Assembly (NCBI RefSeq): GCF_029589435.1
Contig: NZ_JARRAG010000002.1
Coordinates: forward strand, 4,030,001-4,094,000
Length of the DNA stretch: 64,000 nucleotides
Source: Paludisphaera mucosa
Lineage (GTDB): Bacteria; Planctomycetota; Planctomycetia; Isosphaerales; Isosphaeraceae
Direction: 5' to 3'
The stretch's first letter is position 1. Each line of letters starts with the position of its first letter. Made by a program: the position numbers and the translations under genes. Below the pieces are notes generated by a model that was not told the origin of the DNA, did not search any database, and worked only from the letters and a program-made list of their open reading frames with translations. Positions 28,692 to 32,900 of the stretch are shown here, one piece after another.

Positions 28692-29252
28692 ATGAGCCGC
28701 GAGCTGCGAGAGTCCGAGGAAACCCGTCCCGGCGCGATCGTCGGGCTGGCGATCGGGGGCGTCGCGCTGGGGGCCGCGCTCGGGGCCCTGACGAACGCCG
28801 TCAACGGCCGGCTGAGCCCGGAGTACTTCCGGGCCGTCATGCGCTGGGAGGGCGTCGCCGACGTCGCGCGGGCGAGCCTGGCGCAGGGGATCTTCGAGGG
28901 CCTCCTCTTCGGCCTGGGGCTCTCGCTGGTCTTCACGCTCGTGGTCGGCTTCGTGAGCCGGGCGCGCTGCCCGCTGCGGGCCTCGGGGGCGTACTTGCTC
29001 GCGATCGGCGCGACGGCGCTGACCTGCTGGGCGGCCGGCGGGCTGCTGGCGATCGGCCTGGCGACGCTCAGCCCGGAGTTCTACCGGCACGCCTTCCGGG
29101 GAGTCCCCGAAGCGGCCCCCGCCATGCTCCGCTACGCGTGGGTCGGGGGCTCGATCTGGGGGCTGGAGTTCGGCGGCCTGGCCGCCGTGCTGGTGGCGTC
29201 GGTGCTCTTCCGGGCGCGGTGGCGGCCGCCCGCGAAGGCGGCCGCCGCGTGA
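28692..29252 (+). CDS. Four-helix membrane protein with internal repeat
   Basis: 186 residues, ATG 28692 after GGGAGG. Four hydrophobic segments are visible: GAIVGLAIGGVALGAALGAL, GIFEGLLFGLGLSLVFTLVV, GAYLLAIGATALTCWAAGG and SIWGLEFGGLAAVLVASVLF. The two halves are related: NGRLSPEYFRAVMRW after helix 1 matches LATLSPEFYRHAFRG after helix 3. That suggests a duplicated two-helix unit. Function unknown; only aroF on the opposite strand is close. Confidence 0.75.
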   Translation: MSRELRESEETRPGAIVGLAIGGVALGAALGALTNAVNGRLSPEYFRAVMRWEGVADVARASLAQGIFEGLLFGLGLSLVFTLVVGFVSRARCPLRASGAYLLAIGATALTCWAAGGLLAIGLATLSPEFYRHAFRGVPEAAPAMLRYAWVGGSIWGLEFGGLAAVLVASVLFRARWRPPAKAAAA

Positions 29253-29287
29253 GCCTCGCGCCCGGGCGGGGCCGGCCGGCCTGCGGA

Positions 29288-30301
29288 TCACATGGTCCGG
29301 TCGACGGCCTCGGCGATGCGGCGGCACTGGGCCATGAGCTGGCCGAAGGCGGCGGGGGTGATGGTCTGGGCGCCGTCGCTGGCGGCGCGCTTGGGGTCCT
29401 CATGGACCTCGATGATGAGGCCGTCGGCTCCCGCCGCGACCGACGCCTTCGACATCGACGCGACCAGGCTCGACTTGCCCGTCCCGTGCGAGGGGTCGAC
29501 CACGACGGGGAGGTGCGACTTCTCGTTGAGGTAGGCGACGGTCGCCAGCGGCAGGGTGAAGCGGGTGTGGTCCTCGAACGTCCGGATGCCCCGCTCGCAG
29601 AGGATGACGTCGGGGTTGCCGCGGTCGAGGATGTACTCGGCGGCGAGCAGGAACTCCTCGATCGTCGCGCTCATCCCGCGCTTGAGCAAGGCCGGCTTGC
29701 CCGAGTCGCCGACGGCCTGGAGGAGCTGGTAGTTCTGCATGTTGCGGGCGCCGATCTGGAGGACGTCGGCGTATTCGGCGACCATCGGGACGTGCTCGGG
29801 CGCCATGACCTCGGTGACGATCGCCAGGCCGGTCGCGGCCCGCGCGGCGGCCAGCATCTGCAGGCCCTTCTCCTTGTGCCCCTGGAAGCTGTAGGGGCTG
29901 GTGCGGGGCTTGAAGGCGCCGCCGCGGAGGGCCGTCGCGCCCAGGCCCTTGAGGATGCGGGCGATGGCGACGATCTGCTCCTCGCTCTCGACCGAGCAGG
30001 GCCCGGCGATCACCGCGACCTTGGCACCGCCGACCTCCAGCCCGAGGGCCTTGACGACCGTCCGGTCCTTCTTGACCTCGGCCGAGGCCCGCTTGTAGGG
30101 GGCCATGATCGGCAGGACCTTCTCCACCCCCTCGCCGGTCTCCAGGGCCTCGGCCAGCCCGGGCCGCTCCTGCCCGAGGGCGGCGACGACGGTCTGATGC
30201 TCGCCCCGGATGACCTGGGGGGTCAGCCCCAGCGACGTGATCTGTTGCGCCATGGTCTCGATCTGCGTCCCGCTCGCGTCCGGCTTCATCACCACGATCA
30301 C
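29288..30301 (-). CDS. aroF: 3-deoxy-7-phosphoheptulonate synthase (DAHP synthase)
   Basis: 337 residues. Condenses phosphoenolpyruvate and erythrose-4-phosphate, the first step to aromatic amino acids. It is the type I-beta form with a small N-terminal ferredoxin-like regulatory domain (about 1-70, [20 protein letters not shown]). Catalytic blocks are [67 protein letters not shown] and [13 protein letters not shown] 30301 has GGGAGGG nine bases upstream. In relatives the N-terminal domain binds Tyr or Phe for feedback inhibition. Upstream lies a putative attenuator (see 30434-30611). Confidence 0.95.
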
Positions 30302-30433
30302 GGCCGACGCCCTCCCTTGGTTGGTGGGCCGGACTTCCGATCGACCCGGTCTCGACGCACGCCGCCGAGGAGGATCTTGGGAGGTCGCCGACGCCCTGGA
30401 TGATGGGAAATCCGACGAAGTAACCCGAAAACG

Positions 30434-30470
30434 AAAAAAGGCCCCGGTCCTGAAGTCAGGTCCCGGGGCC
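30434..30470 (-). terminator. Intrinsic terminator upstream of aroF
   Basis: On the minus strand, GGCCCCGGGACCTGA pairs with TCAGGACCGGGGCC (one bulge, one mismatch) and is followed by TTTTTT at 30439-30434. It lies about 130 bases before the aroF start on the same strand, so it can only end a transcript that starts further upstream. Confidence 0.88.
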
Positions 30471-30611
30471 TTGGGTATCTGCTTGTATGTGGGTGGGGTC
30501 CTAAGAGCAACCTCCGCACACAGCCCGGCGACCTGTCGCAGCTCTGGTAAACCAGAACCGCCAGCCCTGATAGGAGCCCGCAAAATCGGTCGCGAACAGG
30601 CCGAGCGTCAC
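30434..30611 (-). promoter_or_regulatory. Putative aromatic amino-acid attenuator (leader peptide plus terminator) of aroF
   Basis: Reading toward aroF, a frame ending in TAG at 30503-30501 has Tyr, Trp, Phe, Trp, Phe codons at 30572-30549 ([11 protein letters not shown]). The Trp/Phe codons lie in the 5' arm of hairpin 1:2 (GGCG 30562-30559 with CGCC 30530-30527, inner CTGG/CCAG). The 3' part, CAGGTCGCCGGG at 30535-30524, is also complementary to the terminator 5' arm CCCGGGACCTG (30467-30457): 11 bp with one bulged G. A ribosome stalled on the aromatic codons would free it to form an antiterminator. This is the trp/phe-type logic. The leader start is unclear: GTG 30611 gives 36 residues, with a weak ribosome site. 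Confidence 0.6.
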
Positions 30612-30765
30612 GCGAGGGAACCCCGAAAGCGCCGTCCAACTCTCAAACGAAGGGAACGAAAGGCGAATCCGACCGGGCCCGGAGATGGGTCCCCGAGCCC
30701 GGCCGAACCAAGCCTCGAATAGGCTCGAATATGCGGCTTGCCCGACGGCAAACCCGTCGGCTGCC

Positions 30766-30813
30766 TTAGGCGAGCCGCCCCTGGTTGTCACTACACACGC
30801 GATCACCTCCTTT
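30766..30813 (-). promoter_or_regulatory. Very strong Shine-Dalgarno site with ten-codon ORF in the leader
   Basis: AAAGGAGGTGATC (30813-30801, minus strand) is a perfect 13-base match to the 16S 3' end. GTG at 30798 is spaced seven bases from GGAGG and opens a ten-codon frame (VCSDNQGRLA, first codon read as Met) ending in TAA at 30768-30766. Between it and the attenuator are more stem-loops (CCGACGG/CCGTCGG, GCCT/AGGC). The region has lower GC3 than genes, suggesting structured leader RNA and not a long protein. The 198 bases from 30831 to 31028 show no gene. Confidence 0.45.
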
Positions 30814-31028
30814 ACGTTCTAGCCTCCCCGGGCCCGCGCGAGTCCAGCCTCGTCGCGAGAGCGGGCTCTAGTCCGTCGCGCCACGGTAGCGCGATCCGAG
30901 AGCCGACCGGACGCGTGTCGCCCGATCGACATGATCACTTTATCCCCGTCGACGGGCGGGATCAACAGGGCGCGCCGAAAACATCCCGGACGCCCGCGCC
31001 TGGGTCGCCGCCTCATTCCCGCATCGCT

Positions 31029-31322
31029 TCACAGCCGATCCTTCCAGGCCGAGGCCGAGCGGCGGCCGTGGAGGATGGCGAGGACCTCGATGCGCTCGGC
31101 TCGAACTCGGTAGTAGACGAGGTAGGGGAAGGTCGCCACCCTGGCCCGACGAACGTCCCGATGGACGACGCGATGCAGCTCCGGCGTCGCCTCGATCTGA
31201 CCCGGCGCCTGATGGATCGCCGCGGTGAACCTGGTGCCGAGATCGGCCCGGTCCTGATACCAGTCCGCGGCGGTGAGGAAGTCGAGTTCGGCCTCGGGGG
31301 TCAGGACGACCGGCAGGCTCAC
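31029..31322 (-). CDS. ParE/RelE-type toxin
   Basis: 97 residues with the ParE/RelE fold pattern: VVLTPEAELDFLTAADWYQD, LGTRFTAAIHQAPGQIEATP, ELHRVVHRDVRRARVATFPY, LVYYRVRAERIEVLAILHGRR. The C-terminal YYR...I.VLAI.HGRR block is typical of the superfamily. The target (gyrase or mRNA) cannot be told. The GTG start overlaps the antitoxin stop by four bases, the usual coupled arrangement. Confidence 0.88.
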   Translation of the reverse strand: MSLPVVLTPEAELDFLTAADWYQDRADLGTRFTAAIHQAPGQIEATPELHRVVHRDVRRARVATFPYLVYYRVRAERIEVLAILHGRRSASAWKDRL

Positions 31323-31549
31323 TTCCGGAACCGCTCAAGCGCCCGAGCCTGGACCTCCTCCCAGGGGATGGCGGCGGCAGGCGCCTTGTCCGACGCCTCG
31401 ATCCGCCGATCCAGCAATTCCTTCACGTCCTCGGCCAGCCCTTCCTCCGCGTCGTGGTCGGTCAACCCGTCCCAGACCTCTTCGATGAGGCGTAATTGAT
31501 CCTCGACCGTCCAGTTTCGGATCTCGCTCAATACGGCTTGCAGATCCAT
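31319..31549 (-). CDS. Antitoxin (addiction module component family)
   Basis: 76 residues, ATG 31549 after GGAGA. The pattern is that of the putative addiction-module component family: SEIRNWTVEDQLRLIEEVWD in the first half, LLDRRIEASDKAPAAAIPWE and a basic C terminus (RALERFRK). It is expected to bind and neutralise the downstream toxin; DNA binding and autoregulation are possible but not visible. First gene of the two-gene unit. Confidence 0.88.
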   Translation of the reverse strand: MDLQAVLSEIRNWTVEDQLRLIEEVWDGLTDHDAEEGLAEDVKELLDRRIEASDKAPAAAIPWEEVQARALERFRK

Positions 31550-31664
31550 CTCAGGTCTCCAGACGGGCCTTGGCTCCCAATCACGCTCGTCGGGAGTTGC
31601 GACGACGCGCCCTCCACGAAATCGTAGCCCGGAACGGACCGCCTCAGCAATCGGGGCCCTTTCA

Positions 31665-31852
31665 TCAGGCCAGGTGTTCCAGCGCGTCCCGGCAGGTCTC
31701 GGCCATGCGTTCGAGCCGCGGCTCGTCCGCGCCTCCGGCGATCGCGACGTCCTCGTCGGCCCCGGCGGGCGCCAGAATCCAGGCCACGGCGACGACGTGC
31801 TGGACGTACGGCGCGTCGCTCAGCGGTCCGAGAAAAGCGTGGGGATCGGCAT
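31665..31852 (-). pseudogene. Frameshifted small gene or gene remnant
   Basis: ATG 31852 opens MPIPTLFSDR then stops. In another frame the sequence continues as LSDAPYVQHVVAVAWILAPA, a segment with AIAGGADEPRL and the end RMAETCRDALEHLA, stopping at 31665-31667. That second frame has strong GC3 bias and protein-like composition but no start codon of its own. It is in phase with the glycosidase stop at 31857 and so could also be its former tail. I do not recognise the family. It may be a small decayed gene. Confidence 0.4.
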
Positions 31853-31856
31853 GGAT

Positions 31857-32900
31857 TCAGGCCCCCGGCCTGGCCCACGGCGGCGGCGTCCGCGGCGGCT
31901 CGGCGAGGAATTCCAGGCCCCCGCGCAGGCGGCCGGCGGCGGTGAAGAACGGGTGGAAGCCCTGGCCGTCGAGGCCGTTGCCGTCGTAGCGGTCGCGGCG
32001 GGTGGAGATCGCCTTGCCCTCGCGAAGGGCCCACCCCATCCAGCCGAAACCGGCGGCGGCGAGCATCTCGGTGTTGAACCGGGCGCAGGCGGCGCGGCGC
32101 TGGTCGTCGAGGCAGCCGGGGATGCACTCGTTGACCAGCAGCGGCTTGCGGTGCCGGTCCCTGATCGCGTCGAGGCCCTTGATCATCGCCTCGAGGGCCG
32201 CCGGGGCGTGGGCGTAGGGATGGCCGCAGAGCACGTCGACGAGCGGGGCGTAGGTCTCGATGTTGGTCCCGGCCATGGTGCCGATCGTGATCGGCTGCTT
32301 CGCCCCGCAGCCGCGGACCGCGGCGGCCACGTCCTTCAGCCAGGCGAACTCGCGGCGGTTCACCTCGGTCGCCTGGTCGAACGCCCCGGGCTCGTTGCAA
32401 AGGTCCCAGAGCAGGACCCGGGGGTCGTCGGCCAGGGGCGTCACCAGGGCCCGGACGTAGTCGAGCTGCGGCGTCCAGTTGCGGAGGAGGGTGTCGGCGT
32501 AGGTGCCGCCGTAGTCGAAACGGTCGTCGTGCCAGCGGTTGAAGAGGCAGGGCATCACCTTCATCCCGGCCTCGTCGACGGCCGCGACGGCGTCGAGGAA
32601 GCGGGCCGTCACGGCTTCGGGGTCGGCCATCCAGGCCGTGAACTCGATCCAGAGCCGGATGCAGTTGGCGTGGACCTGGCGGGCGAGGGCGACCTCCTCG
32701 CGGAACCGGTCGCCCCGATACGACCACCAGGCCTCCTCGATGCGCGCCCCCCACGACGGCACCACGCTGAAGCCGCGGAGCCAGCCGTACGAGTCGTAGA
32801 CGTGCAGCGAGGGCCGGCCGGCCGGCTCCTCGGCCGCGCCGCCGAGGCCTGCGAGTGCAACGGCCGCCGACGCCCTGAGGGCCGCGCGACGATGGATCAT
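31857..32900 (-). CDS. GH5-like secreted glycoside hydrolase
   Basis: 347 residues with a Tat-like or Sec signal (IHRRAALRASAAVALAGLGG). TIM-barrel clan A features are present: NCIRLWIEFTAWMADP, LLWDLCNEPG with the acid/base Glu of the NEP motif, and KPLLVNECIPG with the probable nucleophile Glu. Aromatic residues in VVPSWGARIEEAWWSYRGD fit a cellulase/mannanase-like cleft. Substrate unknown. Start ATG 32900; it is divergent from another secreted TIM-barrel gene across 168 bases, so the two may share a promoter region and a carbohydrate role. Confidence 0.8.
   Translation of the reverse strand: MIHRRAALRASAAVALAGLGGAAEEPAGRPSLHVYDSYGWLRGFSVVPSWGARIEEAWWSYRGDRFREEVALARQVHANCIRLWIEFTAWMADPEAVTARFLDAVAAVDEAGMKVMPCLFNRWHDDRFDYGGTYADTLLRNWTPQLDYVRALVTPLADDPRVLLWDLCNEPGAFDQATEVNRREFAWLKDVAAAVRGCGAKQPITIGTMAGTNIETYAPLVDVLCGHPYAHAPAALEAMIKGLDAIRDRHRKPLLVNECIPGCLDDQRRAACARFNTEMLAAAGFGWMGWALREGKAISTRRDRYDGNGLDGQGFHPFFTAAGRLRGGLEFLAEPPRTPPPWARPGA

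Follow-up and report, generated by a model that had tools for sequence, protein, structure and literature searches.

A predicted ribosome-mediated attenuator with mixed aromatic codons upstream of aroF in planctomycetes

The aroF locus and its leader

The window (the whole 64,000-nt stretch of Paludisphaera mucosa DNA that was analyzed) carries an aroF-type DAHP synthase gene on the minus strand. In the sense of transcription, the order is the core of a structured RNA that we call element 1 (30897-30732), a 36-codon open reading frame (ORF; 30611-30501), a terminator hairpin (30472-30438), and aroF. The features are as follows, with the evidence for each in parentheses.

29288..30301, minus strand: aroF-type DAHP synthase (3-deoxy-7-phosphoheptulonate synthase) gene, start codon GTG at 30301 (translation)
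30434..30472, minus strand: predicted intrinsic terminator, hairpin 30472-30438 plus U-tract (folding, -27.1 kcal/mol)
30457..30470, minus strand: segment 3, common to antiterminator and terminator (pairing computation, Isosphaeraceae alignment)
30501..30611, minus strand: leader ORF of 36 codons, GTG at 30611 to TAG at 30501 (translation and genus alignment)
30523..30535, minus strand: segment 2, the upstream partner in the antiterminator (pairing computation, Isosphaeraceae alignment, ribosome model)
30538..30561, minus strand: HP1, a local hairpin over the last aromatic codons (folding; covariation of the inner four pairs)
30549..30584, minus strand: putative regulatory codons Phe10, Tyr14, Trp17, Phe19, Trp20, and Phe21 (translation, alignment, shuffle test)
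30669..30704, minus strand: terminator-like hairpin of element 1, approximate ends (folding)
30732..30897, minus strand: element 1 core, a conserved structured RNA outside the attenuator proper (covariance model)
30766..30798, minus strand: element 1 mini-ORF, VCSDNQGRLA (translation, alignment)
30813-30801, minus strand: element 1 Shine-Dalgarno sequence, 13 nt, AAAGGAGGTGATC (sequence)

The aroF product scored above the cut-offs of the NCBIfam models NF006421 (477 bits, cut-off 335) and TIGR01361 (385 bits, cut-off 268). DAHP synthase belongs to the pathway of the leader codons, as is expected of the gene behind an attenuator. A second DAHP synthase relative of the same genome (L002, 49% identical) had at most two aromatic codons per 12 upstream. 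In two members of the genus (L007 and L008), AGAAAGGGCGTCGACC was found directly 5′ of aroF versus AGGGAGGGCGTCGGCC in the window; the difference alters the apparent ribosome binding site.

The leader frame with Tyr-Gln-Gly-Trp-Arg-Phe-Trp-Phe described in the initial annotation was present, with these codons at 30572-30549. As also described there, it ended shortly before a strong terminator with aroF next: the stop codon begins 31 nt ahead of the hairpin. A simple consensus scan for promoters and terminators found no site in 29000-32500 and thus missed the aroF terminator, so that the terminator call rests on folding. No clear Shine-Dalgarno sequence was found for the 36-codon ORF. In the genus alignment (six genomes, including that of the window), the frame, the stop codon, and the aromatic cluster were kept in all six, and internal indels were 3 nt long. 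The start position was GTG in five of the six and TTG in the other. Trp-Arg-Phe-Trp was replaced by Trp-Trp-Phe-Trp or Trp-Arg-Tyr-Trp in some members of the genus and by Trp-Trp-Ala-Trp in L009. None of 100 shuffles matched the dense aromatic ORF that precedes the terminator in the window. When 27 Isosphaeraceae loci were scanned for a sigma-70 promoter for the leader, no site scored above shuffles in 26; the exception was L079 (score reached by 1/100 shuffles).

Recurrence of the leader among planctomycetes

The sample consisted of 104 aroF upstream regions, namely 65 distinct planctomycete loci (first set) and 39 loci from a draw across the phylum. For the first set, 30 of 39 matched genomes gave loci, the best 80 of 128 were kept, and other phyla were set aside. 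The phylum draw was picked by hand (40 of 106 matched genomes, mostly the best-scoring), and one locus (L190) was too short, leaving 39. A leader was counted when an ORF with five or more aromatic codons within a stretch of 12 ended near a terminator.

Leader and terminator were found together in 65 of the 104 regions (44/65 in the first set and 21/39 in the phylum draw). The best 12-codon window contained Trp, Tyr, and Phe in 53 of these 65 leaders. Examples are MRPFAFGYWFYF (L071), MAFAFTYFWYWF (L075), WYFDLFYFWFIY (L090), and FYWVIYYFRYYY (L193).

As a looser control, base-shuffled DNA placed before the real terminators passed this criterion in 27.8 of 104 regions on average, and the reverse complement gave 0/104, which is a weak control because it examines another stretch. 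Because the base-shuffle background was high, the criterion was tightened by stricter placement and dinucleotide shuffles. With the stricter placement, a terminator was present in 79 of the 104 regions. Of these 79, 65 had a 12-codon stretch with five or more aromatic codons, versus a mean of 3.4 and a maximum of 9 in dinucleotide shuffles; at least six were observed in 59 of 79, versus a mean of 0.6 and a maximum of 3. Taken singly, 67 of the 79 loci were reached by at most 5/100 shuffles. These recurrence counts are not independent events because the loci are related, and near-identical pairs (L022/L025, L064/L065, L084/L087, L182/L184, L193/L199, and L179/L180) were counted separately. The 65 include weak members: 16/100 shuffles reached L204, and in L023 the scored window lay 107 nt from segment 2. 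As far as sequence comparison goes, the recurrence of the aromatic ORF in relatives settles the observation as nonchance.

The leader was not evenly distributed among families. In the phylum draw, it was found in f2 (8/8), f5 (2/2), f7 (1/1), f52 (4/4, one of them weak), f59 (3/3), and f67 (3/4); it was not found in f31 (0/2), f54 (0/3), f73 (0/4), f74 (0/2), and six families with a single locus each. Among the Isosphaeraceae, 27 of 36 distinct loci passed the criterion. Five that failed it (L013, L014, L021, L024, and L055) showed smaller aromatic clusters by eye, L026 was ambiguous, and no aromatic leader was found in L030, L057, and L058, which represent all three genomes seen of the genus g18. 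Overall, 39 of the 104 loci, including several Gemmatales-like ones, did not pass. The check in relatives that had been proposed with the initial annotation thus found the aromatic ORF, the stop codon, the antiterminator segment, and the terminator kept in the genus, in 27 of 36 Isosphaeraceae loci, and in other families. Relatives without aromatic codons had been named there as a refuting result; the aromatic ORF is lacking in the three g18 genomes, in several Gemmatales-like loci, and in every locus examined in f31, f54, f73, and f74.

Alternative pairings and the proposed mechanism

The predicted segment complementary to the 5′ arm of the terminator, described as 11 bp with one bulge, was recovered as 30535-30523 paired with 30470-30457 (11-12 pairs, single-base bulges). 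The proposed hairpin in which the Trp/Phe codons have the antiterminator segment as their 3′ arm was not the preferred fold; in the free fold, these codons formed instead a local 10-bp hairpin, HP1, at 30561-30538 (GCGGTTCTGG/CCAGAGCTGC). Pairing of the Trp codons with segment 2 was possible but weaker (-18.5 kcal/mol when forced, -20.3 kcal/mol in the free fold), at a cost of approximately 2 kcal/mol. Our results support the initial annotation in substance and correct its detail of the Trp-codon hairpin. The antiterminator complementarity of the window was equaled by 13/100 shuffles and is unremarkable on its own in this GC-rich DNA. The whole leader stretch folded better than shuffles (z = -3.2; 2/200 as good). 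All six genus members had identical sequences for segment 2 (CAGGTCGCCGGGC) and for the terminator arm (CCCCGGGACCTG), so that no covariation can be read within the genus.

Covariation was followed in an alignment of 28 of the 36 distinct Isosphaeraceae loci. Eight loci (L026, L029, L030, L055, L056, L057, L058, and L079) were left out as divergent, leaderless, or without a clean terminator, and the pairing percentages accordingly lean towards loci that bear the feature. The antiterminator was paired in 94.5% of cells, versus 11-58% in slid versions. Its covariation score was reached by 5/500 shuffles, and changes on both sides were modest (three pairs, reached by 20/500 shuffles). The inner four pairs of HP1 covaried clearly, with a score reached by 0/500 shuffles. 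The terminator columns of the same alignment were uninformative: owing to indels, the score was higher when the pairing was shifted by one column. Individual loci nevertheless fold strong terminator hairpins of their own.

Outside the Isosphaeraceae, complementarity was also kept between different sequences in distant loci, as in CGTGGGATTTCGGGG with CCCCTGAGACCCAC (L081) and GCGGGTTTCAGG with CCTGAAACCTGC (L062). The shuffle test for the antiterminator covered 52 planctomycete loci, after exclusion of those without a hairpin below -14 kcal/mol and of eight with mis-picked hairpins (L026, L070, L073, L077, L079, L080, L082, and L087). At most 5/100 shuffles equaled the antiterminator in 25 of these 52 loci, and more than that did so in 27.

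The geometry of the leader was similar across loci: the distance from the last aromatic codon to segment 2 had a median of 11 nt and was 6-24 nt in 52 of 65 loci. In the window, segment 2 begins 13 nt past the last aromatic codon, and the stop codon lies 17-19 nt past segment 2. The leading edge of a ribosome usually lies approximately 12-13 nt beyond the A-site codon, and 13 nt from this codon were taken as covered in our model. In this model, the pairing of segment 2 with segment 3 in the window was complete with the ribosome at positions up to codon 22, partial at codons 23-24, and lost from codon 25 onward. The aromatic codons end, at codon 21, where the modeled switch flips, and this is the strongest mechanistic argument. 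Wherever the ribosome was placed, the complete leader folded at equilibrium into the terminator; the choice between the structures must therefore depend on the order in which the RNA is synthesized. When no ribosome was placed, the leader up to segment 3 folded into the antiterminator and not into a protector hairpin; untranslated RNA might therefore read through.

The locus combines a short, codon-rich leader ORF, a terminator between this ORF and the structural gene, and, by computed pairing and geometry, an exclusive antiterminator that a stalled ribosome would leave free. As for a protector or pause structure, a covarying local hairpin lies over the codons, but pairing of these codons with segment 2 is not favored. 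In the pause/antiterminator/terminator logic originally proposed, the exclusivity of antiterminator and terminator is thus upheld by the pairings, whereas the pause hairpin differs from its description. We conclude that aroF is very probably controlled by a ribosome-mediated transcription attenuator, a reading drawn from sequence features. From the parts, their spacing, their conservation, and their complementarity, we infer stalling, termination, an any-of-three logic, and a transcription start for the leader. A ribosome would translate the 36-codon ORF while RNA polymerase transcribes the leader. If charged tRNA-Trp, tRNA-Tyr, or tRNA-Phe were scarce, then the ribosome would stall in the aromatic cluster, leaving segment 2 free to pair with segment 3; no terminator would form, and aroF would be transcribed. 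If all three were plentiful, then the ribosome would pass segment 2 to reach the stop codon, segment 3 would pair with segment 4, and transcription would end. Because the cluster mixes three codon types, shortage of any one aromatic amino acid could open aroF, whose product supplies the synthesis of all three.

Other explanations were considered for the same observations. The terminator might end an upstream transcript, for example that of element 1 or its read-through, with the aroF promoter downstream and the aromatic ORF incidental. Element 1 and its terminator-like hairpin do lie just upstream, and the search for a leader promoter was negative. However, the arrangement of an aromatic ORF ahead of the terminator was seen in 65 of 104 loci, the antiterminator complementarity is kept, and the leader also occurs in f2, f5, and other families in which the fetched copies of element 1 are not near aroF; we regard this explanation as improbable. 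Regulation by nascent-peptide arrest, for which TnaC is the model, would have the leader peptide sense free aromatic amino acids in the ribosome without codon stalling. A constraint on the peptide is possible, given that the TTTAC (Phe-Thr) block that follows the cluster hardly varies among the 28 Isosphaeraceae, but the TTTACC block is also part of the covarying HP1. Moreover, peptides vary widely between families whereas codon type and geometry persist, and arrest in response to a surplus would switch on a biosynthetic gene just when it is not needed, all of which makes peptide arrest very improbable.

T-boxes control aromatic genes in Firmicutes, and a T-box or a metabolite riboswitch could in principle lie upstream of the terminator. 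The conserved part that adjoins the terminator is an ORF, though, and such an element is hardly credible here; it was rejected on finding no T-box or riboswitch match in Rfam up to E 10 in 30280-31020. The Rfam Trp leader RF00513 (accession as given in the available part of PMC4046766) likewise had no match up to E 10 in that interval.

The nearest precedent for the predicted planctomycete attenuator is aroR-aroF of Corynebacterium glutamicum, an attenuator reportedly described by Neshat et al. in 2014. According to the parts available of PMC11802643 and PMC4046766, the leader peptide encoded by aroR contains Phe-Tyr-Phe and precedes the gene for a DAHP synthase, and the system responds to Phe but shows no response to Tyr. 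By these descriptions, both systems have an aromatic leader peptide before a DAHP synthase gene, and transcription in C. glutamicum is raised by ribosome stalling, which we propose for the planctomycetes too. Unlike AroR, for which these descriptions mention no Trp, 53 of the 65 planctomycete leaders mix Trp, Tyr, and Phe.

Attenuators are also known for trp, pheA, and pheST of Escherichia coli (PMC11802643, in the part available). They share with the predicted planctomycete attenuator an ORF with regulatory codons and an arm common to antiterminator and terminator, but each reads one amino acid and governs end-branch or synthetase genes, whereas the planctomycete gene encodes the common first enzyme and belongs to another phylum. 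Further differences from the E. coli attenuators are that the planctomycete ORF extends across segment 2 and that the usual protector hairpin was not observed.

Like the his leaders of Firmicutes (PMC2965389), the planctomycete case would place ribosome-mediated attenuation in a further phylum; in the portion available of that 2010 paper, its authors knew of no leader peptide system outside Proteobacteria and Actinobacteria before their own. The terms planctomycet-, Rhodopirellula, and aroF do not occur in its main text. According to the accessible portion of PMC3766115 (2013), Rfam then held only histidine, leucine, threonine, and tryptophan attenuators, isoleucine/valine and phenylalanine attenuators being also known, and an excerpt of PMC1262725 states that no conserved RNA structure was found upstream of phenylalanine/tyrosine operons in Actinobacteria. 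Among the papers listed in searches of the open-licence PMC literature, judged by titles and abstract starts, there was no report of leader-peptide attenuation in planctomycetes. The proposed attenuator would extend classical leader-peptide attenuation to Planctomycetota, and in this form control of the first step of a branched pathway could depend on three tRNAs read within a single leader. The attenuator makes testable predictions about which codons act and which 3′ end is formed, and it bears on why some attenuators mix codons.

Element 1, a neighboring structured RNA

Element 1, an uncharacterized and widely kept RNA, spans 30660-30897 on the minus strand when its terminator-like hairpin is included. 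A U-tract follows this hairpin in several Gemmatales-like relatives. A covariance model built from 36 of 43 aligned loci, the locus of the window included, found element 1 in 268 of the 397 Planctomycetia genomes; nearly all of the 268 had a single match, and G021, G344, and G371 had two. In the phylum draw, 22 of 148 genomes had a match, eight of them outside Planctomycetia. The helices covaried, with 0/500 shuffles reaching them on all five measures, the structure being derived from the same alignment. In all 55 loci examined, an ORF of 7-17 codons followed shortly after the Shine-Dalgarno sequence; the automatic choice of start was probably wrong in L068, L161, and L174.

At gathering thresholds, the Rfam 15 matches in the window and at 20 loci of the class were all to tRNAs and none to element 1. 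A resemblance to the Caulobacter CC2171 sRNA (28.1 bits, E 0.00059, versus a gathering threshold of 75 bits) scored far too low, and homology is not claimed; no CC2171 match above the cut-off was found in the genome of the window. A table of PMC2864571 lists a Rhodopirellula-1 motif by name, with no sequence in the part available.

Element 1 lies upstream of aroF in Isosphaeraceae. We rejected it as a part of the aroF leader: with approximately 3 kb fetched on each side (less in L168 and L173), 19 of 20 picked hits from different families had no aroF nearby and one did. Element 1 is therefore an RNA gene in its own right, and its synteny with aroF is confined to part of the class. In L084 and L087, the ATG of the aroF leader ORF lies only approximately 25 nt after the terminator hairpin of element 1, so that read-through into aroF is possible there. 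In eight loci (L030, L057, and L058 of g18, and L063, L066, L068, L070, and L080), element 1 stood directly before aroF and no aromatic leader was detected. In these loci, aroF may be preceded by no terminator other than that of element 1, except that L080 shows a further one.

A broader and rather doubtful reading is that element 1 represents a new RNA family, mainly of Planctomycetia, defined by near-single copy number, a maximal Shine-Dalgarno sequence, an ORF of approximately ten codons, covarying helices, and a terminator. Its transcript would run into the aroF leader in Isosphaeraceae and some Gemmatales-like relatives, and aroF would be gated twice, by a sensor of ribosomes or translation and then by the three-amino-acid attenuator.

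Within 30813-30766 (minus strand), GGTGATC in the Shine-Dalgarno sequence has a complementary stretch, GAYAACC, within the mini-ORF; pairing of the two would place the start codon in a hairpin loop, with self-control of translation as a possible consequence. Four of the five pairs were nearly or fully unvaried or G-U in the 36 loci, which is too little variation for a covariation test. In L015, element 1 apparently has an insertion in its hairpin region, with a partial second copy of the element downstream (model positions 153-199, E 1.1e-7).
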